DNA of 63,491 nt. It comes from Methylovulum psychrotolerans. GTDB lineage: Bacteria > Pseudomonadota > Gammaproteobacteria > Methylococcales > Methylomonadaceae. The number at the start of each line of letters is the position of its first letter. Positions within the stretch are counted from its first letter, which is position 1. Positions 39,228 to 58,071 of this stretch are shown piece after piece. The notes beneath the pieces were generated by a model. That model saw only the letters and a list, made by a program, of their open reading frames with translations. It made no database searches and was not told the DNA's origin. A program made the position numbers and the translations under genes. The stretch spans positions 36,165 to 99,655 of the forward strand of contig NZ_PGFZ01000011.1 in NCBI RefSeq assembly GCF_002923755.1, given 5' to 3'.

Positions 39228-40790
39228 ATGAAACCTTCCTTAACCTGTTTGTTTGCCGCTGTTGCCATGGTCTGTAGCTCCCTGGCTTATGGCGGTTCCG
39301 TGCGCATCAGCGCCGCCGAGTTTGTCAAAGATCCCGCCAAAGTCGCGGCCTTACAAAAGGCGGTCGCGGCGATGAAAGCCAATAACAGCGCCGACCCGAC
39401 CAGCACCGCCTACCGCGCCAGTTGGCAATACTGGGCGAACACCCACGGCTATCTGGGCCTGGGCAGTAATTCGTCGGGTGTTGTGGCGACGTATGTGCCG
39501 ACCCAAATCGCCAACCGTTGCGGCGGCAACCAAACCTGCGCCAGCTATTACAGCCATCTGACGGATACCCCTGTGCCCGCTGACGGTTTTACCGATGCTA
39601 TCTGGGGGACTTGCCAGCATGGTAACCTGAGCTTTTTGCCTTGGCATCGCCTTTACCTGCATTTTTATGAGCGGATGTTACGCAAACAGTCCGGTACGGA
39701 CGACTTTAACCTACCGTATTGGGATTACTACCAAGAAACGGGCGAACACGATGTCGGTGTCGCGTTACCTGAGTTGGTGCGTGGCAAGTCAACCGGGCCG
39801 CTGTATGACGAGTTCCGCACACCCGGCCTGAACGACTATAAAACCGCCATTCCCGCCAATACCGCCAGTGCGGAACAAGCTTTTGATTTTACCGACTTTA
39901 CCTCTTTTTCTAATCAGCTTCAAAACCAACCGCATGGGGCGATGCACTGCGGCACGGGCTTTGGCTGTAGGGCGCCCGATATGGGTTTGGTGCCGTTGGC
40001 GGGCTTAGATCCGGTATTTTATATGCACCACGCCAATATCGACCGCTTCTGGCAATGCTGGCTGAACCGTCAAGCGGGTGGCCAAACCATTGATTTGGCG
40101 TGGGCGAAAAAGAATCTGGGGATGCCTGACAGTTGGTATGATACTAAGTACCAGTTTGTCGATGAAAACGGCCAGCCTGTCACGGTGACGATTGCCGATG
40201 TCTTTACGCCGGGGAAAATCGATACCCATTATAGCCAAGAAAACAATTGTCAAACGTCTATGCCGAAAGCCACCCCACCGCTGACCGCCGCCGCCAAATC
40301 CGCCGCCAGCTTTAAGTTGACCGCCCCGCTGGCCAGCACCGAAGCCACCGTGTTAACCGGAAAAGTTGTCAAACGTGGCCTAAAAGCGTTGGGCAATATA
40401 AATTTATTGGCCGCCAATGCGAAAACCGCTGGGGTTAAGGCCGGCCATGCCTTGTTGGTGATTGAGAATGTTAATGCCAAAACCCTGCCCGGCGTGACTT
40501 ATGAGATTTATCTGAGCAATAAAAAATCTCCTGACCGCAAGGTGTATATTGCCACCTTCAACTATTTTGGCCTGTTTGATTCCGCCCACCCGCACGGCGA
40601 CGCGGCCGCGAATATCGGCACCTTGAAATATGATGTCCAAAGCGAGTTGGAGGCGTTGGGGTTAACTTCCGCCGCCGATTTGGAAGTGCAGTTTGTGCCT
40701 AGCGAAGCCGCTACCGCGCCGGAACAAGGTGCGGCGGGTGAGGTGACGGTCGGCAATATCTTGCTGCTTAACGCTGATCCGGCTAAATAA
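39228..40790 (+). CDS. secreted tyrosinase (polyphenol oxidase)
   Basis: The type 3 copper enzyme of 520 residues would oxidise phenols or catechols to o-quinones. A Sec signal peptide (LFAAVAMVCSSLAYG) exports it. The CuA site is CQHGNLSFLPWHRLYLHFYERML and the CuB site includes HGAMHC and GLDPVFYMHHANIDRFW. The last about 130 residues (after TLTAAAKSAASFKL) form a C-terminal extension resembling the domain that shields the active site in pro-tyrosinases (ending VQSELEALGLTSAADLEVQFVP). A second, very different tyrosinase lies 14 kb downstream on the other strand. Confidence 0.93.
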   Translation: MKPSLTCLFAAVAMVCSSLAYGGSVRISAAEFVKDPAKVAALQKAVAAMKANNSADPTSTAYRASWQYWANTHGYLGLGSNSSGVVATYVPTQIANRCGGNQTCASYYSHLTDTPVPADGFTDAIWGTCQHGNLSFLPWHRLYLHFYERMLRKQSGTDDFNLPYWDYYQETGEHDVGVALPELVRGKSTGPLYDEFRTPGLNDYKTAIPANTASAEQAFDFTDFTSFSNQLQNQPHGAMHCGTGFGCRAPDMGLVPLAGLDPVFYMHHANIDRFWQCWLNRQAGGQTIDLAWAKKNLGMPDSWYDTKYQFVDENGQPVTVTIADVFTPGKIDTHYSQENNCQTSMPKATPPLTAAAKSAASFKLTAPLASTEATVLTGKVVKRGLKALGNINLLAANAKTAGVKAGHALLVIENVNAKTLPGVTYEIYLSNKKSPDRKVYIATFNYFGLFDSAHPHGDAAANIGTLKYDVQSELEALGLTSAADLEVQFVPSEAATAPEQGAAGEVTVGNILLLNADPAK

Positions 40791-41028
40791 AACGGTGCCG
40801 CCGCTCAGGCTTAGTTGAGCTGGCGTTGCTGAAGGTATTTTTTTCGTGCAGGGCGCGGAGTTTACTGGGCAACAGCCCGGCAGGCTTCGCGCCCTGTATG
40901 GTTTTAGTGGTGTGGGTTGGGATAAGCCTGGAGTTTAAGGGGGTGAAAACTTGAAAAGCTTGGCGAGCCATGACCGAAACGGTTTCGTAGCCATTTTCTA
41001 GGAACTTGCATGAGATAGCCTTGGCAAA

Positions 41029-41082
41029 TTTGGAGCGCGGGCATCTTGCCCGCTCTTGCGGGCAAGATGCCCGCGCTCCAAA
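41029..41082. repeat. paired REP-like palindrome
   Basis: Arms of 25 bp (TTTGGAGCGCGGGCATCTTG onward) with a 4-base TCTT loop, near-identical in core to 9829-9878 and 3721-3751. It lies between the tyrosinase stop and the endonuclease/phosphatase-family gene. Confidence 0.85.
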
Positions 41083-41213
41083 CCCCATGCCTTAGCAGAT
41101 AGCAGGGCGTTAAGGGCAGGGAGGTGGTTTGCTTAATTTCCCGTGCAACTTTAATGGCTTTTGCCGTGCCAGTCAGGCACTATAAGCCTTTTTTGTTTGA
41201 GGGTTGTCCATTG

Positions 41214-42188
41214 GTGTGGTTAAAACGTATCGCGGTGTCTTTGGTGGTGGTGCTGGTGGCGGTGTTCGCGGTGTTGCGTTATCAGGGGGTGCAGCGGTTG
41301 GCGGCTTATACGGGCGGCGGCTTGGCGAGGCCTTTGCCGGATGCCGCCCGCTGGGCTGGGCAAAGCTGCACCGTAGCGCCAATGCAGGTGTTGAGCTATA
41401 ACGTGATGTACGGGTCGGCGTTTATTGAGGCGATGGCGGCGCGGTTTAAGCATGGCGAGACCGGGAAGGGCGAGTTGCCGTGGTCGGTGCGCTTGCCGGA
41501 AATCCGGGCGCGTATCGCCGAATATAACGCCGATCTGATTGGCTTGCAGGAGATGGGCACGGCGGCGGATGTTGCCATGATTGTGCCGCCGGAGCAGTAC
41601 AGTTTGGTCAGTTACCGTCAGGGTAGTGTCGAATACGCGGATTCGGCGCTGTTATACCGGACGGCGCGGTTTGAGCAACTCGATGCCGGGCAGTTATGGT
41701 TGGGCAATGACCCGGAGTTGCCGATGTCTTTGGGGTTCCGGCGTTTGTCGATGATCCGTTATGTCAATTGGGTGCTGTTGCGCGATAAGGCCAGCGGCTT
41801 TACTTTTTTGTATGCCAACACCCATTTTGATAATGCGGGGGTGAATAAAGACCCCAGTTCGTTGCTGTTCCGTGCGCGGGTCGCGGGTTTGGCGAAGCAG
41901 ATGCCGGTGATTGTGACGGGCGATTTTAATACGACGGCGCAAGAGGCGCGTTATCAGCATATTATCGGCGCGAATGTGCAGCCGCCGTTATTGGCGAATG
42001 CTTATAGTTTGGCGCATAACCCGCCCGTGCCGCCGCAACTGCATCCCGATAAGCGTATCGACCATATTTTTGTCGGTGGGCCGTGCCATGTTGAGGCGGA
42101 TAATTGGCTGTTGGATACCCGGCCTTTGCAAAACGGCCTGCCGATGTCCGACCATGATTTGCTGACGGCGCAGGTGCGGTTTTTTTGA
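41214..42188 (+). CDS. endonuclease/exonuclease/phosphatase family protein, membrane-anchored
   Basis: The DNase I-like fold is recognisable by VLSYNVMYGSAF, DLIGLQEMGT (catalytic Glu), FLYANTHFDNAG, VIVTGDFNTTAQE and IDHIFVGGPC with the final SDHDLLTAQV. The N-terminus has a single membrane anchor (IAVSLVVVLVAVFAVLRY). The GTG start used here has a GAGGG upstream; earlier ATGs (41124, 41154) would add up to 30 unsupported residues. Members act on DNA, phosphoinositides or sphingolipids; the substrate cannot be told. Confidence 0.8.
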   Translation: MWLKRIAVSLVVVLVAVFAVLRYQGVQRLAAYTGGGLARPLPDAARWAGQSCTVAPMQVLSYNVMYGSAFIEAMAARFKHGETGKGELPWSVRLPEIRARIAEYNADLIGLQEMGTAADVAMIVPPEQYSLVSYRQGSVEYADSALLYRTARFEQLDAGQLWLGNDPELPMSLGFRRLSMIRYVNWVLLRDKASGFTFLYANTHFDNAGVNKDPSSLLFRARVAGLAKQMPVIVTGDFNTTAQEARYQHIIGANVQPPLLANAYSLAHNPPVPPQLHPDKRIDHIFVGGPCHVEADNWLLDTRPLQNGLPMSDHDLLTAQVRFF

Positions 42189-42195
42189 GGTGAAG

Positions 42196-42413
42196 TAAGG
42201 AACGTGCATAAAATTAAGTAGGCGTTCCATTGCACCTCAGCGTGTTAAACCCCACCCCAGCCCTCCCCTTGGCAGGGGTGGGAGCTTATGCCTTCCCCAT
42301 CGTACAGGCGAAAATCAGGGGAAAAAAGCCCCTCCCCCTGGCAAGGGGGAGGCTGGGAGGGGGTTGCCGTACTTTCGCCTGTACAACAGATTTTATTTCA
42401 TGCGCGTTCCTAA
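42196..42413. repeat. MITE-like element A, copy 1 (about 217 bp)
   Basis: Bounded by AGGAACGTGCAT and its near-complement (TAGGAACGCGCAT on the reverse strand). The interior contains two C-rich/G-rich segments (CCCCAGCCCTCCCCTTGGCA and its partner) that can fold into a long hairpin. A second full copy lies at 51083-51301 and a decayed one at 59015-59176. No coding capacity. Confidence 0.8.
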
Positions 42414-42455
42414 GCGGAATTGGGTGGGCGGCCCTGTAAGAAAACGCCTATGGCG

Positions 42456-42851
42456 TTATTCGGCTTTTTGCCGTTTCGCCGCGAGAATGTCTGGGAGATT
42501 GACTTCAATCCAATCAGCCAGAGACTCCACTTTTTGGGCTATTTCTTGCCCTAAGGGGGTGAGCCGATATTCGACGTGGGGCGGGATGACGGGGTAAGCA
42601 ATGCGCTCGACAAAGCCGTCGCTTTCGAGCCATTGTAGGGTTTGGGCCAGCATCTTTTCACTGATGCCGCCCACCTTTCGCCTTAACTCGCTGAATCTAT
42701 GGGTGCCGCTTAACAGCGCCACGAGCAGCAGAACTCCCCAACGGCTGGTGACATGGGTCAATATGTCGCGGGATGGGCATTTTTCTGCAAACAGGTTGCC
42801 GCGTTGCAGGCGTTCGGCCAGGGTGGTGGGGGGGTTGGGGATTTCTGTCAT
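42456..42851 (-). CDS. HxlR-family transcriptional regulator
   Basis: The 131-residue winged-helix repressor or activator of the HxlR type has CPSRDILTHVTSRWGVLLLVALL, the HTH RFSELRRKVGGISEKMLAQTLQWLE and the wing VEYRLTPLGQEIAQ. It contains one cysteine (CPSRD), the residue that senses quinones or electrophiles in homologues such as QorR and YodB. It is divergent from the SDR gene, as in the E. coli ytfH-ytfG pair, and the operator between them has a perfect palindrome. It is likely to control the quinone reductase. Confidence 0.9.
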   Translation of the reverse strand: MTEIPNPPTTLAERLQRGNLFAEKCPSRDILTHVTSRWGVLLLVALLSGTHRFSELRRKVGGISEKMLAQTLQWLESDGFVERIAYPVIPPHVEYRLTPLGQEIAQKVESLADWIEVNLPDILAAKRQKAE

Positions 42852-42873
42852 TTTACACTTACCTTTAGGTGTG

Positions 42874-42892
42874 TACTTACTATTGGTAAGTA
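42874..42892. promoter_or_regulatory. candidate HxlR operator palindrome
   Basis: TACTTAC-TATTG-GTAAGTA has 7-bp perfect arms around a 5-base spacer, in the short gap between the divergent regulator and SDR genes. HxlR/QorR sites are typically of this form. A second, imperfect half (TTACACTTACC) lies just upstream and may be a second site. Confidence 0.7.
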
Positions 42893-42942
42893 TATGTTGT
42901 ATTCTGTTTGCTCTTTCTCAATAAAGCAAAGGATATTTTATC

Positions 42943-43794
42943 ATGATTGTTATCACCGGGGCCTCTGGCCAACTTGGCCGCTTAGTTATTGACATATTGC
43001 TTAAATCTGTACCCGCCCAGCAGATTGTCGCTGCGGTGCGCGATCCGCAGAAAGTGGCGGATTTAGCGGCTTTGGGCATTCAAGTCCGGCAAGCCGACTA
43101 TGATCAGCCCGCTACCTTAGTGAAGGCATTTGCAGGTGCCGATAAGCTGCTGTTGATTTCCGCCACCGAAATTGGCCGTCGTCTGCCCCAGCATCGGGCG
43201 GTAATCGACGCGGCACAACAAGTGGGCATCAGCCTATTGGCCTATACCAGTATCTTACATGCCGATAGTTCGCCGTTACCGCTGGCGACGGAACACCGGT
43301 TAACCGAGGCTTTGATCCAGGCTTCGGGCATTCCTGCTGTTGTGTTACGCAATGGTTGGTATTCTGAGAACTATCTGGCCAGTATCCCGGCGGCTTTGAC
43401 GTATGGGGTATTGCTTGGGAGTGCGGGTGATGGCCGCATTGCTTCGGCGGCGCGTGCCGATTATGCGGCGGCTGCGGCAGCAGTGCTGACCCTGGACGGT
43501 CAGGCCGGACGGGTTTATGAGTTGGCGGGCGATGCGTCTTACAGTTTGGCGGAATTTGCGCAAGAGCTTTCTCAGCAGTCCGGCACCTTGGTCGGTTATC
43601 AGAATCTCCCGGAGGCCGAATTCAAAGCTGCACTGGTCGGTGCGGGTTTGCCGGAAGGTATTGCCACATTGCTTTCGAAATCCGATATTGGTGCGTCCAA
43701 AGGCGGATTGTTCGATGACAGCCACCAATTGAGCCAACTGATTGGCTATCCGACCACGCCAATCGCTGTGCAAATACAGGCTGCGCTCCCCTAA
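42943..43794 (+). CDS. NmrA/SDR-type NAD(P)H:quinone reductase (QorB/YtfG-like)
   Basis: The 283-residue Rossmann protein opens MIVITGASGQLGRLVIDILL with the nucleotide loop, and continues VPAQQIVAAVRDPQKVADLA, LLLISATEIGRRLPQHRAVI and VVLRNGWYSENYL. These match E. coli QorB (YtfG), which reduces quinones with NADPH. Divergent control by the cysteine-bearing HxlR regulator supports detoxification of quinones. Quinones are expected products of the tyrosinases and of the multicopper oxidase encoded nearby, which is inference. Confidence 0.88.
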   Translation: MIVITGASGQLGRLVIDILLKSVPAQQIVAAVRDPQKVADLAALGIQVRQADYDQPATLVKAFAGADKLLLISATEIGRRLPQHRAVIDAAQQVGISLLAYTSILHADSSPLPLATEHRLTEALIQASGIPAVVLRNGWYSENYLASIPAALTYGVLLGSAGDGRIASAARADYAAAAAAVLTLDGQAGRVYELAGDASYSLAEFAQELSQQSGTLVGYQNLPEAEFKAALVGAGLPEGIATLLSKSDIGASKGGLFDDSHQLSQLIGYPTTPIAVQIQAALP

Positions 43795-43896
43795 AATTTA
43801 GCTATTGCTGTCAGCAAACAGGTGCTTGGGCATCTGTTTGTTGCGGTGGCTAAGGTACGCGCCAGAGCTAAAGCTGCCCTTAGTTAAAGGCTACGC

Positions 43897-44331
43897 TTAA
43901 CGTCCCAGTTCCTCACCAAAAATCGCCCCCGCCGCCGCACCGACCCCGGTCGCTAAGGGGTCGCCACCGCCCAGTTCATAGCCCGCCACGCCGCCGATAA
44001 CCCCGCCCGCCACCCCGGACATTAAGCCGTTATTGTTACGGTAGTAGCGTTGCGGACGCGGTTGTTGATAATACACGGGCGGCGGTGGGGGTGGCGCGTA
44101 GATAATTTCTTCGCGGTAGATGGGGCGCGGTTGCGGGTAGACGTTAATCACCTCGCGGTAGATGGGGCGTGGTCTGTGGTGGTGGTGATGTTCGTGCCAT
44201 TCGCCGCGCCCGTCGCCCCAGCCGCCGCCACCCCAACCGCCCCGGCGACCCCAGTCGTCGTCATCGGCATGGACAGGGGCTGCCATTAAAGCACTCAAGC
44301 CTAAGGCAACCATCAGCATTAATTTGTTCAT
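43897..44331 (-). CDS. secreted glycine-zipper protein
   Basis: The 144-residue protein has a signal peptide (MLMVALGLSALMAAPVHA). A Gly/Trp/His-rich middle (GGWGGGGWGDGRGEWHEHHHHHRP) is followed by a Tyr/Pro repeat (PRPIYREVINVYPQPRPIYREE) and a C-terminal glycine zipper (GVAGGVIGGVAGYELGGG ... GAAAGAIFGEELGR). The His run could bind metal. It matches the general type of glycine-zipper 2TM proteins of unknown envelope role. It is convergent with the SDR gene. Confidence 0.72.
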   Translation of the reverse strand: MNKLMLMVALGLSALMAAPVHADDDDWGRRGGWGGGGWGDGRGEWHEHHHHHRPRPIYREVINVYPQPRPIYREEIIYAPPPPPPVYYQQPRPQRYYRNNNGLMSGVAGGVIGGVAGYELGGGDPLATGVGAAAGAIFGEELGR

Positions 44332-44493
44332 AACAGCCTTCCTTTATTGGGATTGTTAATTGATTGGCGGAAAAGCCGCCGTACTTTGCCCTTATTGGAC
44401 AGTGTGGCGATAGCATAAAGCAACGTGGCTTAATGGCAGCTTAACGGCGGCGGGGGGAATTGTGGAAATAAGCGGTTGGGCTTTAGGGGGGTA

Positions 44494-44524
44494 GCCTTTC
44501 AGGCCATTGGCAAACCTGAAAGGC
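44494..44524 (-). terminator. hairpin downstream of the secreted protein gene
   Basis: GCCTTTCAGG and its complement form a 10-bp stem with an 11-base loop, 33 bp past the stop of the 244-aa secreted protein gene. There is no strong T-run, so assignment is tentative. Confidence 0.45.
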
Positions 44525-44556
44525 CGTAAGTGATAGGCTGAACTTAGCCGCGTTGC

Positions 44557-45927: not shown

Positions 45928-47256
45928 GTGACTGCCACTACTGATTATCTGGCGCAATACGATGCCGCCGCCGAAGCTGACAAATTCCCTCTGGTACGGC
46001 ACTGGTTGGATACCGAACCGCTGCCGTTTTTTAAACAACTGCGTGAGCAGCGGCCTATTCTGGTCACGCCGGTCTGTACCTTGCTGGCGCGGTTTGACGA
46101 CATCACCGAAGTGCTGAACATGCCGAAGGTGTTTACCGTTGAGCTGTATATTGCCAAGATGGGCGATTATCTGATGGCGCATGATGACGATGCCCTGCAC
46201 ACCCGCGAAAAGTCTCTGATGCAAGGCCTGCTTAACCGTGATGATTTGCCGCAGGTGCGGGCGTTGGTCGCGCGGATCGGTAAGGCGATTCTCGACGGCG
46301 CGGGAACGGGGATTGAAGTCGTTAACGACTATTGCCGCATGGTGCCTGCGACTTTGGTGCAGGATTATTTTGGCCTGACGGGGTGTGATAAAAAGGACTT
46401 GATCGAATGGTCGTATTGGAACCAGTACGATAATTTCCATAACCACCCTTTCGACCTGATGCCGGAAGAGAAGCGCCTGTATATCGTCGAGCGCCATAAT
46501 GCCGTAGGGCCGCCGCTGGGGGCGTATATCGCCGAGTTGATGGCGCGGCGGCTGTTGGCGGTGAAGGCGGAACAGGCGACCAGCAGCCTATTGGTGCTGT
46601 GGTATGGGCTGAAAAAGTTGTTCCGGCTGTTATCCGGCAAGAAAAGCGAGCCGCTCACCGATGATATGGTGACGCGGATGTTACGCACCAATTTTCCCGA
46701 TGCGGTCAATTTTGACTTGACGCGGGTCGGCATCAACGCGGGCGGCTTGCTGATCGGGGCGATAGAAACTACCTCGCAGGCAGTCGCCCAGATTCTGCAA
46801 TTTTTGCTGGACAACCCCGCTTGGCTGGACAAGGCCGTTATCGCCGCGCACCGTGATGACAATAAAGAATTTGACAGTATTGTTTGGGAGGCGTTGCGCT
46901 TTGTGCCGATTGCCCCGTATTTGTTCCGCAAAACCGCTGGCCCTTATACGGTCGGCAAAGACACGCCGCGCGAGACGATGATCTTGCCCGGCACTTATGT
47001 GCTGACCCTGACCCAATCGGCGATGTTCGACCCGCTGATTTTCGCCAACCCCGACGACTTCGTCCCCGAACGCAATTGGTACCATTATTTCCACTTCGGT
47101 TTCGGTAGCCATGAGTGCTTGGGCAAGTATGTCGGTATGGTGATGATCCCGGAAATGGTCCGGCAAGTGTTACTAAAACCTAATGTCCGCGCCTTGGGGC
47201 GGATTGATTATAAAGACGGGCCGTTTCCTGAGCAGTATGAGTTGGCTTGGGGTTGA
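45928..47256 (+). CDS. cytochrome P450
   Basis: The 442-residue soluble P450 has the haem-thiolate cysteine at residue 397 (FHFGFGSHECLGKYVG), the K-helix E-x-x-R in VWEALRFVPIAPYLF and an unusual I-helix INAGGLLIGAIETTSQA, with Glu-Thr where most have an acid-Thr pair in AGxDT. The gene starts with GTG after AAGGAG. It is followed after 122 bp by the multicopper oxidase gene in the same direction. I cannot assign a substrate. Relatives in some bacteria accompany animal-type haem peroxidases, which are absent here. An oxidant generated by nearby enzymes might be its partner, as speculation. Confidence 0.88.
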   Translation: MTATTDYLAQYDAAAEADKFPLVRHWLDTEPLPFFKQLREQRPILVTPVCTLLARFDDITEVLNMPKVFTVELYIAKMGDYLMAHDDDALHTREKSLMQGLLNRDDLPQVRALVARIGKAILDGAGTGIEVVNDYCRMVPATLVQDYFGLTGCDKKDLIEWSYWNQYDNFHNHPFDLMPEEKRLYIVERHNAVGPPLGAYIAELMARRLLAVKAEQATSSLLVLWYGLKKLFRLLSGKKSEPLTDDMVTRMLRTNFPDAVNFDLTRVGINAGGLLIGAIETTSQAVAQILQFLLDNPAWLDKAVIAAHRDDNKEFDSIVWEALRFVPIAPYLFRKTAGPYTVGKDTPRETMILPGTYVLTLTQSAMFDPLIFANPDDFVPERNWYHYFHFGFGSHECLGKYVGMVMIPEMVRQVLLKPNVRALGRIDYKDGPFPEQYELAWG

Positions 47257-47378
47257 ACACCGTAAAAAAGGGGCTTGCGGCCCAGTTGGCCGCGCTCCAA
47301 GGCAAACAGCCTAAACCTGTACCACCCAAAAAACTAAAAAAAGCGTTACCCACCACTATCGAGAGAAGGACGTAGACT

Positions 47379-49073
47379 ATGCAACACTCCCCTGTAAAAC
47401 TGGCTTTGGCGATTGCCTGGGCGTTGGCCACCCCATTGGCGGCTCAGGCCGACACTAACCCTTTGTGTGCTTACGATAAGATTGATGTCAATAAATACGG
47501 CCATCAGCCGTTCCAAAACCCGCCGGAGATCCGCTCTAGCAACGGTGTGTTGACTACGCCGCTGGAAGTGAAATTTACCGACCCCAAAACCACCAGTATC
47601 GCCGGGTGTCCGGTGACGTTGCGCACTTATAACGGGCAATTGGTCGGCCCTACCTTGCGGGTTAAACAAGGCGATGTGATTAATCTGACGCTGAATAATA
47701 ATTTGCCTTTAGAAACGCCGAACGAAGTCCAGCAACAGTTTGACCAAGAAAAAGACAGCGCGTATCTGGACACCAAGCCCGCGTCGTTTAACACCACCAA
47801 TATGCACTACCACGGCCTGCATGTTTCGCCGACGGGTAACAGCGACAACGTTTTGCTGGCGATCAGCCCGCAAAGCCATTTCCCTTACGAAGTCAAACTG
47901 CCCAGCACCCACCCCATCGGCTCGTATTGGTATCATGCCCATGCGCACGGCTCGACTTCCATCCAAGTCGGCAGCGGTATGGCCGGGGCGATTGTTATTG
48001 AAGACAATGCCGACGCGCCAAAAGCCTTGCTGGCGGCCAATGCCAATGAGAAAACCTTGGTCTTGCAGACTATTCTTTATAACGAAAACGGCAAGCTTAA
48101 CAATATCACCAAGCTGTTTCCGGGGCCGTCCACCCCCACCGCCAAAGATTGCAAGAAGGCCAATAAAGGCACTTGGCCGTGCGCTAACCGGGCGATTACC
48201 ATCAACGGCCAAATCGCCCCCATCATTACCATGAAGCGCGGCGAGGTACAGCGTTGGCGCTTGATTGACACCGCGTTCCGCGAATCGATTTATTTCGCCG
48301 TGCAAGACCATGACCTGCATGAGATTGCCCTGGACGGCAATTATTTGGGGCATGTCGACACTTGGAAGGCGGGGGTGGCCATTGATTTGGAGCCGGGCTA
48401 CCGCAGCGATGTCTTGGTGAAGGCCAGTATGAAACCGGGCGATTATGAAATCCGCGATATGGCGACCCCGGCCAGCCAATCGTTACGCGGCGACGATGAA
48501 GGCAGCCATGTGATCGGCATTTTGCGCGTCACTGATGAGGTGAACGAGATGGATTTGCCGACCGATGCGCAAATGCGGCCTTTAGCGCCGTTCGGTGATA
48601 CCGATTTGAGCAAAACGGCGGTGGGTTTGCAACAAGTGACGTTTAATCTGACCCAAGATTTGCCGGGTAAGAAAAACTATTTCCAAGTCAATGCCCGCGC
48701 CTTTAGCCCCACCCATGTCCGCAAGCTCAACTTGGGCGCGACCGATATGTGGGCGTTGACGACGTTGGGCGATCCTGATCCGTCGGCATTGGCCAATCCC
48801 GATAACGCCATACCGCCTGTGCCACATTTGTTCCACATCCACGTCAATCCGTTCCAATGGACGCGCCAAGGCCCCGATACGCAATTAGAGCGGGTTTGGA
48901 AAGACACGTTACTGGTGCAAGGCCCGGCCACTACGAATGTCTATACCCACTACACCGACTATATCGGCAAGTTCGTCATGCACTGCCATATCCTCGACCA
49001 TGAAGATTTGGGTATGATGGAAGTGGAGGAGGTGGTTGATCCCAATAGTGGGGCTGCGGCGCATAGCCATTAG
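47379..49073 (+). CDS. secreted multicopper oxidase (laccase-like)
   Basis: The 564-residue protein with a signal peptide (ALAIAWALATPLAAQA) has three cupredoxin domains. Copper ligands are in NMHYHGLHV, GSYWYHAHAHGSTSI, HLFHIHVNPFQW and VMHCHILDHEDLGMMEVEE (type 1 site with Cys and the axial Met). Such enzymes oxidise phenols or metal ions with reduction of oxygen to water. In Marinomonas mediterranea a multicopper oxidase (PpoA) accompanies tyrosinase and LodA in melanogenesis. The protein ends GAAAHSH. A rho-independent terminator follows at once. Confidence 0.92.
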   Translation: MQHSPVKLALAIAWALATPLAAQADTNPLCAYDKIDVNKYGHQPFQNPPEIRSSNGVLTTPLEVKFTDPKTTSIAGCPVTLRTYNGQLVGPTLRVKQGDVINLTLNNNLPLETPNEVQQQFDQEKDSAYLDTKPASFNTTNMHYHGLHVSPTGNSDNVLLAISPQSHFPYEVKLPSTHPIGSYWYHAHAHGSTSIQVGSGMAGAIVIEDNADAPKALLAANANEKTLVLQTILYNENGKLNNITKLFPGPSTPTAKDCKKANKGTWPCANRAITINGQIAPIITMKRGEVQRWRLIDTAFRESIYFAVQDHDLHEIALDGNYLGHVDTWKAGVAIDLEPGYRSDVLVKASMKPGDYEIRDMATPASQSLRGDDEGSHVIGILRVTDEVNEMDLPTDAQMRPLAPFGDTDLSKTAVGLQQVTFNLTQDLPGKKNYFQVNARAFSPTHVRKLNLGATDMWALTTLGDPDPSALANPDNAIPPVPHLFHIHVNPFQWTRQGPDTQLERVWKDTLLVQGPATTNVYTHYTDYIGKFVMHCHILDHEDLGMMEVEEVVDPNSGAAAHSH

Positions 49074-49091
49074 GCTTAAGCGGGAGTGGGT

Positions 49092-49124
49092 AAGGGCAAG
49101 CGTTTGGGCTTGCCCTTCGTTTTT
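49092..49124 (+). terminator. rho-independent terminator after the multicopper oxidase
   Basis: AAGGGCAAGC and GCTTGCCCTT form a 10-bp stem with a 6-base loop, followed by CGTTTTT. It begins about 19 bp past the stop codon and closes the P450-MCO transcript. Confidence 0.85.
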
Positions 49125-49303
49125 AGGGAGTCGTGTTAATTATCCTAAAGCTGAGCTTGTTAACCCGTCAGTGCTGAATCCTTTGGATAATGGGTAAGTC
49201 ATCAGGCATCGTATAGCTTCTTTCAAATGAAGATTAGCTGTTTATTTAGAATACGGTTAAGCGTATGATTGACCGTATTATTAAGGTCTTATGGAGGCAT
49301 GGC

Positions 49304-49561
49304 ATGGCGGGTATCAGTGCAAACGAACTGAAAATAAAAGGCGTTATGGCGATACAAACGGCGTTGGAGCAACACGATGAAGCGGTTATTTCCGTGCGTG
49401 GCAAAGAACGTTTTGTGGTGATGGATGTCGCACATTACCAGTATTTACGCGAATGCGAATTGACCGCTGCGCTGGCTGAATCCCATGCTGATATAGCAGC
49501 AGGACGCTATGTTAAAGAATCCGCCGAGCAACATCTGGCGCGGTTGGAAAGTATGGGATGA
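49304..49561 (+). CDS. Phd/YefM-type antitoxin
   Basis: The 85-residue protein opens MAGISANELKIKGVMAIQTALEQ and continues DEAVISVRGKERFVVMDVAHYQYLREC, the prevent-host-death fold. A GGAGG sits six bases before the chosen ATG; an upstream in-frame ATG (49265) has none. The next gene overlaps by 4 bp (ATGA), the normal toxin-antitoxin arrangement. In working modules this protein would neutralise the toxin and repress the operon. The toxin here is damaged, so the antitoxin may be a relic or may guard against a related toxin. Confidence 0.85.
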   Translation: MAGISANELKIKGVMAIQTALEQHDEAVISVRGKERFVVMDVAHYQYLRECELTAALAESHADIAAGRYVKESAEQHLARLESMG

Positions 49562-49832
49562 GCTATACGCTAATTTTTACTGAGCAATACAACCGCCGGG
49601 CTTTACGCTTTATTAAACGCCATCCTGAGCTAAAAAAACCGTATCTTAAAACCCTGCAACTGCTGGAAGTGAACCCGTTCCACCCCTCGTTACGCTTACA
49701 TGCCTTGCAAGGCAAGTTAGCGCATTGCCACTCTGTTTCCATCAATCTGTCTTACCGCATACCTTGGAGTTGCAAATCAGTGCAGCGGAAATTATTCTGC
49801 TTAATGTGGGCGATCATGATGCGGTTTATTGA
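49558..49832 (+). pseudogene. RelE/ParE-type toxin, frameshifted
   Basis: The frame starting MSYTLIFTEQYNRRALRFIKRHPELKK has the toxin pattern through HALQGKLAHCHSVSINLSYRI. It then runs into an unrelated reading at 49750. Restoring one base recovers TLELQISAAEIILLNVGDHDAVY-stop, the expected end of YafQ/RelE-type toxins, ending at 49832. The open frame as it stands runs to 49935 and into the lodB-like gene. A one-base deletion (real or sequencing) has probably inactivated it. Confidence 0.8.
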
Positions 49833-49866
49833 CAGGAATAACGTTTTTTTGGGGCTTTTCCTGGAT

Positions 49867-50961
49867 TTAACCCAGCCGCCGTTGCCAAAACGGCGCGTCT
49901 GGCCAGCGTTGTTCTTGGCGGTGGTAGTCGCTTAGGGTGGTTTGGTAGGCGGCGAATTCGCGCTGCATCAGTGCTTGGTAGCGGGTGAAGCCGCTACTGT
50001 CTTGGCGGCGGATGTAGTCAGTTAGTGCGTAAGCGGCGAACAGGCCGGAACGTAGGGCTTTGATGATGCCTTGTGAGGACAGGGGATCGAAGCAGGATAG
50101 CGCGTCACCTACGGCGAGCAGGTCGGGGCGGGCGGGGCCGTGTAGGTAGCGGGAGTTGGCTGGCCACAGTTGCGGTGGGGCTAGCGGGCGGGCGTTGCCG
50201 ATGAGGGGCTGGACGTGGCGGGTCTGTGCCAGTTGCTGTTGCCAAGCGGCCAGTTGTTTGGCTTTGAGGCGGCGGGTGAGGTCGGCATCGGTCATTAGGG
50301 CGACCACGCGGCGGCCTTCGGGGAGGGCGGCGGTGTACCACCAACCGTCGGGGCAGGCTTCGGTCAGTACGGCATCGGCGTTGGGCAGGTCGGGGTCGGT
50401 CTGGCCGAAAAAGACCGCACTGGCGACGAGGCGGTCGTGGTTGATGGGTTTAAGGCCTGCCAGACGCGACGGCAGGGCGGTGCGGCCACTGGCATCGATG
50501 AGGTAGGTGGCGCGGTAGTCGCCTGCGTCGCCGCAGCCGATGTGCCAGTATGGGGCGTGGTGGCTGAGGGTGTGGAGTTGGGCGGGCAGGCGTTGGGCAC
50601 CTTGTTGGCGGGCGGCGTTGAGGAGTGTTTGGTCGAAGCGGGCGCGGTCTAGCCGCCAGCCAGTGTTGTGGACGTTGAGAAAGAATTCGTTGCTGACCAG
50701 TTCGGGGCTGCCCCAGGCGCTGACGGTGCGGAATGAGGGGCAATGGTTGTCTTGTAGGAAGGCCGCGCCGACACCGAGTTGGTCAAGAAAGGGCTTGATG
50801 AGCGGCGGTACGGATTCGCCGATGCGGAAGGGGGTGCTGCGGCCAGGGTCGGCGATGGCGACGCGCAGGCCGGGCACGGTTTGGGCGAGGGATAGGGCGA
50901 CCGCACAGCCTGCGGGGCCGGCACCGACGATGAAGACATCAAAAAGGGTGGGCTGGGTCAT
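49867..50961 (-). CDS. LodB-like flavoprotein maturase
   Basis: The 364-residue FAD-dependent protein has the dinucleotide motif FIVGAGPAGCAVALSL near the N-terminus, then SVPPLIKPFLDQLGV, NTGWRLDRARFDQTLL, YLIDASGRTALPSRLA and LLAVGDALSCFDPLSSQGI. This is the tryptophan-halogenase-like/LodB family, in which LodB is required to form the cysteine-tryptophylquinone cofactor of LodA. The length matches LodB (about 368). It is the last gene of the tyrosinase-lodA-small gene-lodB order, separated from the others by a MITE-like element. Maturation of the LodA-like protein is the expected role. Confidence 0.85.
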   Translation of the reverse strand: MTQPTLFDVFIVGAGPAGCAVALSLAQTVPGLRVAIADPGRSTPFRIGESVPPLIKPFLDQLGVGAAFLQDNHCPSFRTVSAWGSPELVSNEFFLNVHNTGWRLDRARFDQTLLNAARQQGAQRLPAQLHTLSHHAPYWHIGCGDAGDYRATYLIDASGRTALPSRLAGLKPINHDRLVASAVFFGQTDPDLPNADAVLTEACPDGWWYTAALPEGRRVVALMTDADLTRRLKAKQLAAWQQQLAQTRHVQPLIGNARPLAPPQLWPANSRYLHGPARPDLLAVGDALSCFDPLSSQGIIKALRSGLFAAYALTDYIRRQDSSGFTRYQALMQREFAAYQTTLSDYHRQEQRWPDAPFWQRRLG

Positions 50962-51082
50962 GCGTTGTTTGGGGAGGTAAGTGATGGTCTGTTTTAGGCA
51001 ATGGCGTGGTTTGTCAGGTGACGGCGGCTACCTGACAAACTACGCTATTGGGCGGTAAGCTAGCGGCCAGTAATCTGCTAGC

Positions 51083-51301
51083 TTAGGAACGTGCATAAAA
51101 TTAAGTAGGCGTTCCATTGTATCTCTGCGTGTTAAACCCCACCCCAGCCCTCCCCTTGGCAGGGGAGGGAGCTTATGTCTCCTCCGGTATACAGTTGAAA
51201 ATAAAGGGGAAAAAGCCCATTCACCTGCCAAGGGGGAGGCTGGGGTGGGGTTGCCGTACTTTCGCCTGTTCAACAGATTTTATTTCATGCACGTTCCTTA
51301 C
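51083..51301. repeat. MITE-like element A, copy 2 (about 218 bp)
   Basis: Same organisation and strongly similar sequence to 42196-42413, with ends AGGAACGTGCAT and GCACGTTCCT. The first 70 bases are almost identical and the middle has diverged. It lies between the lodB-like gene and the small gene next to lodA. Confidence 0.8.
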
Positions 51302-51377
51302 CTCAGCTTGGTTTTTGCTTGGCGGTGGCGGTGTCGGGCAGAACCGCTTGCCCGACCTACTCGACTACGCGCGCTGG

Positions 51378-51785
51378 TTACAGTTTAACCGCATAAAATG
51401 AGGCGACGACACCGGCGGGGGAGATGCCGCCGTTGCTGCTGGCGTGGGGGATGGTGCGGATGACGGAGCCTACCAGGGCGGGGATTTGTTGTACGCCGTT
51501 CGGCCAGTGGGCGACCAGGTAGCCTTCGTAATCGTAGATCCATTGTTCGCCGCCGACCACGCCGACCCCTTGGAAGCGTACCCGCATCGGGCTGCCGTAT
51601 TCGCGGGAGCCTTGCAGTTTCAGCGACCAGCCGTCGCCGCCGATGGTGCCGCTGAGGATTTGCATGGCATCTTCGTGGATGTCGATGACACCTTGGCCGA
51701 ATTCCAGATCGTTGACGGCGGTGTTCAAGTTAGGGTCGTTTAAGAGGCTGCGGTAAGCCCATTGGCCGACGAAAGGGTTGTTCAT
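51378..51785 (-). CDS. small hypothetical protein encoded next to lodA, 135 aa
   Basis: The protein of 135 residues has no signal peptide and is strand-rich: NNPFVGQWAYRSLLNDPNLNTAVNDLEFGQGVIDI, LSGTIGGDGWSLKLQGS, WIYDYEGYLVAHWPNG and a C-terminal ASFYAVKL. The beta-barrel-like pattern reminds me of lipocalin-type folds, but no family is recognised. It lies 98 bp downstream of the LodA-like gene and reads the same way, so it is probably co-transcribed. A role in binding a substrate or a quinone intermediate of the LodA pathway is inference. Confidence 0.6.
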   Translation of the reverse strand: MNNPFVGQWAYRSLLNDPNLNTAVNDLEFGQGVIDIHEDAMQILSGTIGGDGWSLKLQGSREYGSPMRVRFQGVGVVGGEQWIYDYEGYLVAHWPNGVQQIPALVGSVIRTIPHASSNGGISPAGVVASFYAVKL

Positions 51786-51882
51786 GGTGTGCTCCTTGGC
51801 GTTATGGTTAGTGTTGGGTGGTGCGTTAAGGGAGGTTGTGCCGGGAGGGCGGGTCAGTGGCCCGTACTCCCGGCAAGTTAGG

Positions 51883-54171
51883 TCAATCGCTTTTTTCGGT
51901 GTCCGGCCCTGAGCGTTCGACGCTGTAATAGCGGTCGTCGGGCAGGCTGGTGGATGGGGTGGCCATCACGTTGCTGCTGGGCGGTAGATGGGGGTTGCGG
52001 ATGATGAAGCCGAGCCGCCACCAGTCGCTGACCATTTTTAGGTCGCCCGCGTTGGTTTGTTGGATGCCCCGGCTCCAGGTCGTCCATTGCAACTGCGGTT
52101 GCCCTTGTGCGTCGAAGCCGACCAGTTCATTGGATTGCAGGGGTCGGTGTGCGGGCCACCAGAGGGTATCCCAGGTTTGTTGTTGTTGCGCCATGCGGGC
52201 ATCGTCGCTGGTGTTGATGAGGTTCCACTCGGCGTAGGTTATGTCGATGGTGTTGGTGGTGCATTCGTTAAAGTCGGCTTGCCACGGCACGGCCATGGAT
52301 TTGGTCAGGTCGCCCGGTTGCAGGCCGGTGTTGTAGTCGTTGTTTTGGCTAAGCGGGCTGTCCATGGCGAAGGTGTTGTCGTCGAGCAAGCTGCCGTGTT
52401 TGGCGTTGGCTTGGGCGGCAGATTGCAGGAAGTCCGACCAACTGCGGTCGGCTTTGATCCGGTAGGGTTCCAGGTAGATGGAGGGGTTGCGCAGCACCCA
52501 GCCGATTTCGCCGCCCGGACAGAACGCCCCGCCGAGCAGGTTGCTCAATACGCCACGGTCGAGTTCGCGGGCGTTTTTGGGGGGTGTGGTGGGGTAGGGT
52601 TGGAACACCGGATAGTTGGGGGGTAGGCAACCTTGTTCGATTTCGTTGCTGAAATAGCCCAGCGCCCATTGTTTGAGGACGAACAGTTGGTAGTCGGTCA
52701 GGCGCAGAAATTTGGACGGCACGAGATTGCTGAGCGGGTTGTCGCCGCATAATAGCGGCATCAACGGCAGGTTGTGGATGCGGCTGCCGACTTTGTTGCT
52801 GATTTTGAAGTCATTTTCTTCACCGCCGCGCCGGAGCAGGTCGAACAGGAATTGCCGCATCGGTGCGTAGGGGTCGAATACCCAGAGGCCGTCTTGCAGG
52901 CGTGGGGTGGGCTTGCGGGTTTCGGCTTGGGCTTCGCCTTGGCTGGCGTTGCGGTTTTGGTGGCGGCTGAGGCTGTCGGCGACCGCTGCGTCGTAGTCGG
53001 CACGCTCGTGGAAGTAGCGGGGCGGTTGGCTGAGCAGGCGGGGGTCGAAAGTGCCGCGCTGTTCGGGATCGTGGGGGAAGTTGGATTGGGCGAGGATGTC
53101 GCTCAGGTATAAAAATTCGTTGGGGCGGAACAGGATCGGCCAGATGTCGCAGTAGAAGCCGGGTTTAAAGGTGGGGTTCCAGGTCAGGCGGCTGGCTTGC
53201 CATTGTGCCAGGGCTTGCGCGTTGTGGGGCGGGATGGTTTCGGGGTCGGCAAAGCTGTCGATGCGCCCGTACAGGCGGGTGTCGGCGGCGAATTGGCGTA
53301 GGCTCAAGTCGTAGAGTACGTCGTCGGCGGTGATCATGTCGAGGATTTGCGGCACGAAGCGCGGGTAACCGGCCACCACCCAGGCGGGGTATTCGACATC
53401 AATGTAGCGGGTCTGGCCGACTTGTTCGGAGTACATGATCAGCCGCGCCATGACCGGGCCGTCTGAGGTGTCGTCGTACCAGCCGTCGTTGTTGGCGTAG
53501 TCGCTGATATGCGGCTCGCCGGGGCCGGTTTTTTCGCAGCCGGAATGGCCGTGGCCGCCCAAGACCAGCAAGCGCCCTGCGTCGTCGGTGAGGATTTCGC
53601 CCAAGGTGTCGATGTCGTGCGGTTGCAGGCCGCGCGGCGGGAAGGTGGTGGCGTAAGCGCCGTCGCCAGTGCGGTCGAAACGGGCGCGGCGTTGGGTGGT
53701 GGTGTTGACGCTGCGCGGGCCCGGGTCAATGACTAGGCGGTCGCGGTCGGTGATGTCGGGGTTGCGGCGGGGATGGTCGCTGTCGTAGCCATGTTCGCCG
53801 CGCAATTGTTGGAAGTCGTACCACGACGCTTTTTTGTTGGCGAGGTAGACCCGCCATTGGATGTCGGTCAGTACCCCGTGGTTGCCGCCGCCTTCGACGG
53901 GGTCGCCGAGTTGCAGTGGCCGGCCTTCGGGGCTGTCGGCATCGTAGACGTAGACTTGGAAGCGGGCGGCTTGGCGTTTGATGCGCCCGTGCTTATCTTT
54001 AAAGGTGTTGACCAATAAGGGGCCGGTCAAGTCGGGGGTTAATAAAGGGTTGCCTTGTGCGTCGCATTGTTGCGGCAGGTTGGCGGGCATTTCGGGGGCG
54101 ATATAAAATTCGCTGGTGCTGTTACCCAGACGAGCGATGCCGATGCCGGGATGGATTTTGTATGTAGCCAC
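51883..54171 (-). CDS. LodA-like cysteine-tryptophylquinone amino acid oxidase
   Basis: LodA-type enzymes oxidatively deaminate the epsilon-amino group of lysine (others use glycine) with release of hydrogen peroxide. The 762-residue protein starts ATYKIHPGIGIARLGNSTSEFYI, the family opening. The two residues that form the quinone are present: Cys551 in GGAFCPGGEIGW and Trp630 in VPWQADFNEC, about 79 residues apart. LVLGGHGHSG, YPAWVVAGYPRFVPQILDM and TDIQWRVYLANKKASWY are also family features. No signal peptide. The substrate cannot be deduced from sequence. A lodB-like maturase lies downstream. Confidence 0.92.
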   Translation of the reverse strand: MATYKIHPGIGIARLGNSTSEFYIAPEMPANLPQQCDAQGNPLLTPDLTGPLLVNTFKDKHGRIKRQAARFQVYVYDADSPEGRPLQLGDPVEGGGNHGVLTDIQWRVYLANKKASWYDFQQLRGEHGYDSDHPRRNPDITDRDRLVIDPGPRSVNTTTQRRARFDRTGDGAYATTFPPRGLQPHDIDTLGEILTDDAGRLLVLGGHGHSGCEKTGPGEPHISDYANNDGWYDDTSDGPVMARLIMYSEQVGQTRYIDVEYPAWVVAGYPRFVPQILDMITADDVLYDLSLRQFAADTRLYGRIDSFADPETIPPHNAQALAQWQASRLTWNPTFKPGFYCDIWPILFRPNEFLYLSDILAQSNFPHDPEQRGTFDPRLLSQPPRYFHERADYDAAVADSLSRHQNRNASQGEAQAETRKPTPRLQDGLWVFDPYAPMRQFLFDLLRRGGEENDFKISNKVGSRIHNLPLMPLLCGDNPLSNLVPSKFLRLTDYQLFVLKQWALGYFSNEIEQGCLPPNYPVFQPYPTTPPKNARELDRGVLSNLLGGAFCPGGEIGWVLRNPSIYLEPYRIKADRSWSDFLQSAAQANAKHGSLLDDNTFAMDSPLSQNNDYNTGLQPGDLTKSMAVPWQADFNECTTNTIDITYAEWNLINTSDDARMAQQQQTWDTLWWPAHRPLQSNELVGFDAQGQPQLQWTTWSRGIQQTNAGDLKMVSDWWRLGFIIRNPHLPPSSNVMATPSTSLPDDRYYSVERSGPDTEKSD

Positions 54172-54192
54172 GGTGAGGATTCCTATGGTTAA

Positions 54193-54612
54193 CTGATGTT
54201 ACGCAGACATATTCTGCGATTTAAAAAATAAATAATGAGTCGCTATCGCGACGGCTTTTTTAATCGGGTTCTCGCACCCGAAGGCGAGATACTTTCTTTT
54301 GCTCCGCCAAAAGAAAGTATCCAAAGACAAATCCGCTGGGAGCGGATTTGGATGCACCGCACACGAAGTGCGAGTGCCAGGACGGCACGCGTCAGAAGGC
54401 GGCCCGATTGCCGCTTGATCCTGCGCTTCTCGGTTTTGTCGGGGGTCGGCAGAGAGGGCTCCTGCCTTTATGCCCTTTGGGTGCACCTGCCGACGCGCGG
54501 CATCCCTGCCTCGCCCCTTTATGCCCTATGGGTATTCGGGCTGATCCCGACAAACCCTGCGATGCTCGGCGCGGCAAACGGGAGAAAAGTGACGTTACTG
54601 CGTAACGTCAGC
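54193..54612. mobile_element. MITE-like element B (about 420 bp), ending at the tyrosinase stop codon
   Basis: Left end CTGATGTTACGCAG and right end (reverse complement) CTGACGTTACGCAG match in 13 of 14 bases. The right end also forms a small hairpin GACGTTAC-TGC-GTAACGTC. Both flanks show GGTTAA: directly before the left end and, one base off, after the right end, a candidate 6-bp target duplication. The right duplicate contains the TAA stop of the tyrosinase (read on the minus strand). The inside is a G+C-rich sequence with no real gene. Confidence 0.6.
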
Positions 54613-54614
54613 GG

Positions 54615-56702
54615 TTAATCGAGGAAGTTGAGGGAGACGCCTTCGAGTTTGAGCAGGTCTAGCTCTTCCTCGTAATCGGCACCGATAACGACCAGGGTGA
54701 TCTGTAACTCGTGGGCGCTGGCGAGCAGGTGCCGGGCGCAGTCGGTCACGTCGATGCGGTGGTTGCGCGGCATGTTATGGCTGCGTGTCCGGTGGTCGAA
54801 GTCGCGCGGTTGCGGCGGCGGGGTGGCGCAATGGCCGGGGCCGCCGTAGCAGGCGCCGTGGCCGAAGATGGCCAGATAACCGGCAAAATGCGGGTTGTCG
54901 CGCCAGTCGGTATGGGCATCGGCACCGGGTTGGTTTAAGAACACGCGCACGAAGCAGGAGCGTTCCAGTTGCGGTACCCAGTGCAGGCGGATTTCGGCTT
55001 TACGGAAGCCTAGGGTTTCTGGCGCGACGGCAATCGGTGCGGACAGGAAGCGGCCAACCGGGGCTTCTAGGCCGACGGGCATGAAGTGGCCGCCGCGCAG
55101 GTATTCGTAGCCGAAGCGGGCGATGTTGAGGGTGTCGCGCTGGGTGTAGTTCCACGGCGACAGGATAGCGTCCAGTTCGACGGGGTTGCTGTTGGGGTTT
55201 TGCCCTTGCCATTCCCACCACAGCCTGTCGACATTGACGTGGATGCCCCAGAATATCGGGTCGTAGGAGGCGGTGAGGTTGCTGAACATGTCGCCGAATT
55301 GCGGTTGGCTGTACATGTCGTTACGCGAGTGGAAGCTACGTCCGCCCGCCCTGACCATGCCGTTGCGCCGTGCCGCCAGCTGCGGTGTGGCGGTGCGGGC
55401 GGTGGCGGTTGCGGTGGCCGCGTAGCTGCCTTTGCCGTCTTGGTAGGGGTTTTCGCCGCCTGTCCAGATGTGCAGGGTGTTGTGGGGGTTTTGGTCTAAG
55501 AAGCCGAACGCGGCATCGTAGATGCTGCCGCCGCCAAAGTCGCGGAAGTTGTTCAGGCTCATGATCTGGCGGATGTCGTCGGCACTGGGGTAGTGGTAAT
55601 GGATGGCTTGGTTGATGGTTTTGCCGCCGTATTCGGCGGGGAAGCGCAGGGGATACCACAGCGGGTTGGAGGCGAGCAATGCGTCGAGCAGGCGTTGGCG
55701 GTTGCTGTCTTTCGGGTCTGGGGTCAGTTCGGTGTAGCCGATGACGTTATAGACGTACTCGAAAAACTGGCTTTGCGAGACGAACAGGCAGTGGTCTTCC
55801 GCCAAACGCATAAATGCCGCCGCCTGTTCGGGCGTGGGGCGCGGGTTTAGGCTGTCCAGCAGCTTGGCGGTGACTTTGGGCAGCAGGAAGGCTTGGTGGA
55901 CTTTCGGGGTAATCCAGCCTTGCTCCGGTTGTTCGGGGCGGTATTGCGGCATGGTCCAATCCCAATAGGGCAGGGTCACGTCGCTGTCGAAGTCTTGCAG
56001 GTTTTGCTCAAATTCGTACAGGTAGGCGCGGTGCCAGGGCAGGAAGCGTTCCCAGCCGTGTTGGCAGTGGTTTTGGTGGATCAGGGCTTGGTTGTTGTAG
56101 CTGCGGCGGTCTTCCGGCCATTTGTTCAGAGCGTAGATGTCTTTGAAGGCGGCACGCAGGCGGTTGGCTTCGGCAGTGCCCATGCAGTCGATGTTGACGC
56201 GTTGCTTAGGTTCGCCGGGGCGGCGCACGCGGCGCATTCCGTCGGGGGCGACGTTAAATTCGTGGCGTTCGCGTACCGAAATGGTCAGCGATTCTAGGGT
56301 TTCGCCTTGTACGGGCAGGGGCGGTTGGGTGTCGGGGTCTTCTTCGGGGCAACCGTCGTCTATCCAGGCGCTGATAAAGCCGATGTCGGCGGCGCTGATG
56401 GTGGTGGTCCAGCGCGGGTAGCGGCTATCGTCGAACGGAGCCTGGCCTTGTAGGCCTAAGATCAGGCCGGACGCGGCGCTGCGCCGATAGTTGGGGTTGT
56501 CGATAGGGTGGCCGCAACAGGTGGTCGGTGTGGCGGCGGCGATTAAGGGGATATCACCAATGCGGGCGGCCAGCAGGGCGGGCAGGCCTTGCCGCCAAAA
56601 ATGGCCTAAGCCGCCGTAATCGGCGCTGCTGTTCTGGGCGGCGGCTTCCAGAATGGCGATGACCTGCCGGTAGCGGCTCGGTGGGGTAAGTTGCGATGAC
56701 AT
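54615..56702 (-). CDS. tyrosinase-family copper enzyme with N-terminal domain
   Basis: The 695-residue type 3 copper protein has copper A in [25 protein letters not shown] and copper B in NTLHIWTGG plus [19 protein letters not shown]. The second histidine of the usual HH pair is retained and the first replaced by Ile. Its first 135 residues form a separate domain with [22 protein letters not shown] and [11 protein letters not shown], resembling cytochrome-c-like cores found in copper enzyme fusions, though no CxxCH haem motif is present. No signal peptide. The C-terminal about 180 residues have a beta-rich extra domain. It heads the lodA/lodB strand. Confidence 0.85.
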
Positions 56703-58063: not shown

Positions 58064-58071
58064 GCCGTGCC

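Follow-up and report, generated by a model that had tools for sequence, protein, structure and literature searches.

We examined a region of about 17 kb (positions 39228-56702) within a 63,491-nucleotide stretch of the Methylovulum psychrotolerans genome (contig NZ_PGFZ01000011.1; this whole stretch is hereafter called the window). To judge from its gene layout, the core of the region is a member of the "group ID" operons built around a LodA-like oxidase (Campillo-Brocal 2015, PMC4417212). On balance, we favor the view that the window holds a rearranged copy of such an operon, which would act as a phenol-to-quinone module with a small protein, sp135, as the partner of its phenol oxidases. What is new here is that sp135 also occurs without LodA, beside a tyrosinase and/or a multicopper oxidase (MCO). 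Sequence comparison further suggests that sp135, a protein in its own right, is probably related to the β-barrel domain of PvdP, the pyoverdine maturation tyrosinase of Pseudomonas, the link running through a fusion protein of Mesorhizobium onobrychidis. The core genes are as follows.

47379-49073, plus strand: MCO (PF07732, PF00394, PF07731)
49867-50961, minus strand: LodB-like flavin adenine dinucleotide-dependent protein (NCBIfam LodB match below cutoff)
51378-51785, minus strand: sp135, small protein of 135 amino acids (aa), predicted avidin-like β-barrel, between the LodA-like and LodB genes
51883-54171, minus strand: LodA-like cysteine tryptophylquinone (CTQ) oxidase, 762 aa (PF17990, PF18417)
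54615-56702, minus strand: Tyr2, type 3 copper tyrosinase, 695 aa (PF00264)

The minus-strand genes thus run in the order Tyr2, LodA-like, sp135, LodB, and the MCO gene is convergent (tail to tail) with lodB.

Conservation of the core operon

Loci are denoted by L numbers and genomes by G numbers, G000 being the genome of M. psychrotolerans itself. A scan of genome contigs with the LodA-like protein yielded 94 relatives, the best 80 loci being retained, and a further set covered 43 loci with LodA and/or sp135; all counts apply within the stretch of sequence available for each locus. The 21 LodA loci nearest to that of the window come from Methylococcaceae, Nitrosomonas and another member of the Nitrosomonadaceae, with one Rhodobacteraceae metagenome-assembled genome (MAG), one Gammaproteobacteria MAG and one unclassified proteobacterium. 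A tyrosinase is present in 20 of these, an sp135 homologue occupies the same slot between LodA and LodB in 20, and an MCO is found in 15, the order being MCO-Tyr2-LodA-sp135-LodB wherever the genes are present. The remaining 59 of the 80 LodA loci gave two tyrosinases and neither sp135 nor MCO, with the proviso that the query set was derived from the window cassette and could miss distant tyrosinases or MCOs there; the linkage is therefore specific to the LodA clade of the window. The claim of an earlier, sequence-only note on this DNA that tyrosinase, LodA/LodB and MCO belong together is thus borne out. The single locus lacking a tyrosinase (L024) lies on a contig that begins inside LodA, and the single one lacking sp135 is L019. 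Little or no upstream sequence is available for four of the loci lacking an MCO (L015, L016, L024 and L029), while in L025 and L034 no MCO was found in about 8 kb upstream. The tyrosinase-LodA-sp135-LodB block turns up again in genomes of Alpha-, Beta- and Gammaproteobacteria and of one member of the Acidobacteria, a recurrence beyond chance.

The MCO slot is more variable. In 12 related loci, an MCO 66 to 72% identical to that of the window lies upstream of Tyr2; in L017 to L019, the slot holds a nonorthologous MCO that is 31% identical to the window type and 54 to 57% identical to rhizobial MCOs, and the Bradyrhizobium MCO is 36 to 37% identical to these L017-L019 and rhizobial types.

The earlier note had regarded the system as undescribed, which does not hold for the core. 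Group ID operons were reported to comprise lodA, a small gene of 138 to 142 aa (in 10 genomes), lodB, a tyrosinase and an MCO, with no conserved domain identified in the product of the small gene (PMC4417212). The operon of Bradyrhizobium japonicum USDA6 described there has the same gene content as the core of the region (PMC4417212); the copy in the window differs in that its MCO is on the opposite strand (15 of the 21 nearest LodA loci have it co-directional with the operon) and in that two repeats lie in its gaps. The main text of that paper mentions neither "Methylo" nor "Nitrosomonas."

Across 101 relatives, a LodA-like gene of the window type was found in the M. psychrotolerans genome itself and in G023, G043 and G060, with a distant one in G028; none of 19 same-genus genomes gave a LodA-like match. 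Among these relatives, the MCO was found in G060. In a 33-row tree of LodA-like proteins (midpoint rooted, with several long branches), the window protein grouped with Methylococcaceae (support 86/92, not starred), Methylobacter tundripaludum joined the N. communis cluster (100/99), Bradyrhizobium formed the next branch, with its homologue L121 grouping with the window clade, and other Nitrosomonas made up a second deep group with a Gammaproteobacteria MAG and an Acidobacteria locus. This topology points to transfer between methanotrophs and ammonia oxidizers. Two second copies were also seen. In G023, contig C269 (L129, 1202-5323) carries a second tyrosinase-LodA pair (36% and 43% identical), and neither sp135 nor LodB has a match there. 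In M. psychrotolerans itself, contig C78 (L130, 8708-11771) carries a second LodA-LodB pair, and the 20 kb of sequence read around it gave no match to a tyrosinase, an MCO or sp135.

sp135 and the PvdP β-barrel

The small protein had been overlooked in the earlier gene list. A role as a LodA-specific maturation factor was rejected because 15 of the 43 loci hold sp135 with no LodA or LodB found; 14 of these 15, many of them near-identical, have sp135 beside a tyrosinase and/or MCO. They include rhizobial loci (Sinorhizobium meliloti pHRC017, S. fredii, Rhizobium sp. CB3171 and S. medicae) that run MCO-sp135-tyrosinase-110-aa protein, where sp135 sits between the two oxidases. In contrast to the window, these have no LodA/LodB found, their tyrosinase is a 536-aa protein with a twin-arginine signal, and their MCO is of a different lineage (30% identical to that of the window). 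sp135 is thus probably a partner of phenol oxidases rather than a LodA maturation factor. In Nitrosomonas communis Nm44, the sp135 homologue (L021, 12332-12733) has one in-frame TGA.

The structural model predicts that sp135 is an eight-strand barrel with the fold of the avidin family. The connection to PvdP is made by L119 of M. onobrychidis, where a single gene, adjoining those for LodA and LodB, joins an sp135-like domain to a tyrosinase domain of the PvdP type. Over its full length, the fusion aligns with PvdP residues 49 to 505 (E = 3e-90) and covers positions 55 to 512 of the NCBIfam PvdP model, with a score of 380 that lies below the equivalog cutoff of 625. Its N terminus scored 28 standard deviations (SD) above shuffled sequences against window sp135 and 6.7 SD against the PvdP barrel segment, with neither score reached in 1,000 shuffles. 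In PvdP (PDB 6eys and 6rrp), the N-terminal β-barrel works with the type 3 copper domain, and the fusion aligns over both. The arrangement in the window differs: barrel and tyrosinase domain do not share one chain, sp135 and Tyr2 being separate proteins. Moreover, "split PvdP" cannot be meant literally, because Tyr2 gives no PvdP match by sequence.

Several observations weigh against this reading, that last one among them. Window sp135 shows no detectable direct similarity to PvdP: its local score against the PvdP barrel was reached by 750 of 1,000 shuffles, an hhalign comparison of the two was null, the sp135 profile gave no PvdP match among PDB sequences, and PvdP was absent among the 50 structure matches listed for the sp135 model. 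None of 15 sp135 members, a set that includes the N-terminal part of the fusion alone, matched an NCBIfam model. Three PvdP-type tyrosinase domains (L139 to L141) lack sp135 both within the chain and in the 10.7 kb of sequence available. Tyrosinase-LodA pairs without sp135 occur in L019, L129 and the more distant L036 and L038, and the R. etli-type loci L097, L122, L124 and L126 carry MCO-sp135 and, within the sequence read, no tyrosinase. In favor of the reading, conservation in sp135 alternates along its predicted strands (a pattern equaled in 1 of 5,000 shuffles): W9, Y11, S13, W82, Y84, Y86, R110 and H114 each lie on whichever face of their strand is the more conserved, although this pattern may reflect packing of the barrel rather than a ligand site. 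Near the MCO-sp135 genes of L097 (R. etli p42d), about 2 kb away, lies an avidin/streptavidin-family gene (11246-11713).

Alternatively, sp135 may be an assembly or copper delivery (caddie-like) factor for copper oxidases that does not contribute to binding the substrate. This would fit with its presence beside a tyrosinase alone (L100 and L117), an MCO alone (L097) or both. However, Cys is absent from the window protein, and its highly conserved residues are mostly Gly and aromatics, with a single His among them. Together with the predicted avidin-like fold, this leads us to regard such a role as improbable. Under the favored reading, sp135 is a partner related to the barrel of PvdP, where an inhibitor has been reported to sit between the barrel and tyrosinase domains, blocking the substrate pocket (PMC9569983).

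Core enzymes

The active-site residues examined in the core enzymes are, by sequence, intact. The LodA-like protein matches PF17990 (E = 1.6e-61) and PF18417 (E = 7e-40) and carries the residues of a CTQ-dependent oxidase of the LodA superfamily: Cys637, Asp633 and Trp672 are present in 79 of 80 rows (the window and 79 of 80 loci), and Cys637 and Asp633 fall inside the block aligned with LodA in the PDB. In this superfamily the Cys and Trp form the CTQ, with the Asp close by. Scores against the NCBIfam models for LodA (lysine epsilon-oxidase, NF038172; 318 bits, equivalog cutoff of 600), GoxA (glycine oxidase, NF038173; 164 bits, cutoff of 750) and LodB (268 bits, cutoff of 400, E = 1.6e-79) all fall short, and substrate names should therefore not be attached to the LodA-like and LodB-like proteins. 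The latter, encoded last in the LodA-sp135-LodB order of the nearest loci, is the probable maturase of the former.

Tyr2 (PF00264, E = 1.9e-33) has the six histidines of a type 3 copper tyrosinase: His209, 215, 224, 407, 411 and 488, together with Cys213 of a CxH motif, are invariant in an 18-row alignment. From the motif, these histidines are presumably the copper ligands. Its homologues are collinear and 34 to 81% identical in 20 of the 21 nearest loci, Tyr2 being the first gene of the conserved block in the window. A model of low overall confidence (predicted local distance difference test score of 58) suggests a helical N-terminal and a β-rich C-terminal extension, and no obvious signal peptide was seen. 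The MCO has the copper motifs HYHG, HAHG, HLFHIH and HCHILDHEDLG and, judged by eye, a Sec-like N terminus.

State of the operon in M. psychrotolerans

Two interspersed repeats make up most of the 443-base gap between Tyr2 and LodA and of the 416-base gap between sp135 and LodB. In the 19 nearest loci with both ends available, the former gap is 18 to 46 bases in 18 and 191 in L031; the latter, measured match to match, is 11 to 92 bases in the 19 nearest loci. The repeat at 54189-54611 has 61 matches in its own genome (self and fragments counted), the best other copy being 83% identical over query bases 18 to 440, and that at 51080-51312 has 58 (counted likewise), with a second copy in the window at 42198-42411 that pairs with 51085-51298. 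One of the two families carries a terminator-like hairpin directly past the Tyr2 stop codon (54610-54590, minus strand); such sites number 16 overall, against 11.9 expected. Between MCO and LodB lies a possible toxin-antitoxin pair (49265-49935; Phd/YefM-like and YafQ-like, with Pfam scores below cutoff), the second open reading frame of which overlaps the 3′ end of lodB. Because both strands are used and this pair lies in between, the genes of the 17 kb do not form one transcription unit; the region is a patchwork. The copy here, split by repeats, may be poorly expressed, which counts against a working module in this strain. Upstream of Tyr2, in the slot occupied by the MCO in relatives, are two adjacent related genes (57134-59013; DUF4351, the first with a weak YhgA-like match) with direct repeats of 80 to 84%.

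Neighboring genes

The genes named in the earlier note were all confirmed, with LodA and LodB as "-like" proteins only. Those outside the core are the following.

39228-40790, plus strand: Tyr1, tyrosinase
42456-42851, minus strand: HxlR
42943-43794, plus strand: NmrA-type short-chain dehydrogenase/reductase (SDR)
45928-47256, plus strand: P450

A gene of the endonuclease/exonuclease/phosphatase (EEP) family is also present, and between it and Tyr1 is a perfect 25-bp inverted repeat with a 4-base loop (41029-41082).

The earlier note had joined all of these in one integrated quinone and peroxide system. The genes do lie within 17 kb of each other, and distant LodA loci have single homologues nearby (a P450 of 28% identity in L038, an HxlR of 32% in L075 and SDR pieces of 29 to 44% in L076). 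However, none of the 43 loci yielded a homologue of P450, HxlR, SDR or EEP (E up to 1e-8) or a second tyrosinase, the P450 matches near two Sinorhizobium loci (E = 3e-4 and 1e-3) lying below this threshold. In the 101 relatives, the P450 and Tyr1 are distributed independently: the P450 occurs in G023, on a different contig from LodA, and in G070, a genome outside the five that gave a LodA match, and Tyr1 (E up to 1e-40) matched in its own genome only. Thus, when co-occurrence in relatives, the refuting test named in the earlier note, is used as the check, tyrosinase, LodA/LodB and MCO survive it and the P450, HxlR, SDR and second tyrosinase do not, and we reject the integrated system as highly improbable. 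As part of the reading favored above, we regard the P450, Tyr1, the HxlR/SDR pair and the other secreted proteins as neighbors and not parts of the operon. In G023, the P450 homologue adjoins a RoxA-like cytochrome c gene (L137, 7385-10971), perhaps a separate module.

It had also been proposed that LodA-derived peroxide feeds the P450 as a peroxygenase. Peroxygenase P450s (CYP152-like) characteristically lack the acid-alcohol pair of the I helix. The window P450 retains it (Glu-Thr in GAIETTSQ), which makes this role unlikely and is a further point against the integrated system.

Proposed mechanism and significance

The conserved layout and the tie of sp135 to phenol oxidases are shown by genome comparison; all of the chemistry is inferred. 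The LodB-like protein would build the CTQ cofactor of the LodA-like enzyme, which would deaminate a primary amine to give an aldehyde, ammonia and H2O2. Tyr2 would oxidize a phenol to an o-quinone, and the exported MCO would continue phenol or radical oxidation. sp135 may bind the phenolic substrate or dock on a copper oxidase, completing its substrate pocket; in PvdP, the barrel appears to act in this way. The most likely outcome would be a quinone-derived product (a pigment, a cross-linked polymer or an antimicrobial) plus peroxide. Against this scheme, we are not aware of any group ID operon for which activity, expression or a product has been measured, and the function of these operons is given as unknown in PMC4417212.

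A different emphasis would make the operon an antibacterial peroxide device, in which extracellular oxidation of lysine or another amino acid yields H2O2 that kills competitors, with quinones protective or toxic alongside. The LodA of Marinomonas mediterranea is said to belong to subgroup IA, which differs from the layout group of the window. Group IA proteins have been reported as antimicrobial amino acid oxidases, and in M. mediterranea LodA, whose CTQ formation depends on LodB, is co-regulated with a tyrosinase and an MCO, the same enzyme classes as in the window (PMC4417212). The parallel with this organism, raised in the earlier note, had already been published for operons of this type, but in M. 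mediterranea the tyrosinase and MCO are unlinked to lod and do not form one operon (PMC4417212). In addition, the window protein scores below the equivalog cutoffs for both LodA and GoxA, its operon has the layout of group ID and not IA, and the device would not explain why loci without LodA have sp135 together with phenol oxidases. We consider it unlikely, if somewhat less so than the assembly or copper delivery role of sp135, and retain the phenol-to-quinone module as our working view.

A broader and more tentative proposal, to which we give slightly less than even credence, is that sp135 founds a family of free-standing β-barrel proteins, kin to the PvdP barrel, that serve phenol oxidases as partner subunits, joining tyrosinases and laccases of several lineages and shaping the pocket or supplying substrate. 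The group ID operon would then be a tyrosinase-centered tailoring system to which LodA/LodB have been added, as a cassette mobile between methanotrophs, ammonia oxidizers and soil or symbiotic alphaproteobacteria. That the same copper-rich oxidase cassette should occur in methane and ammonia oxidizers, with transfer supported by the tree, is unexpected. Group ID operons were listed in 2015 as conserved but unexplained (PMC4417212), and a relative for their small protein leads to a concrete experiment, for which the LodA-free rhizobial loci offer a simpler genetic system. These comparisons move attention from peroxide to phenol chemistry, and the apparent likeness of sp135 to one domain of a known tyrosinase may provide the first testable idea of its role.

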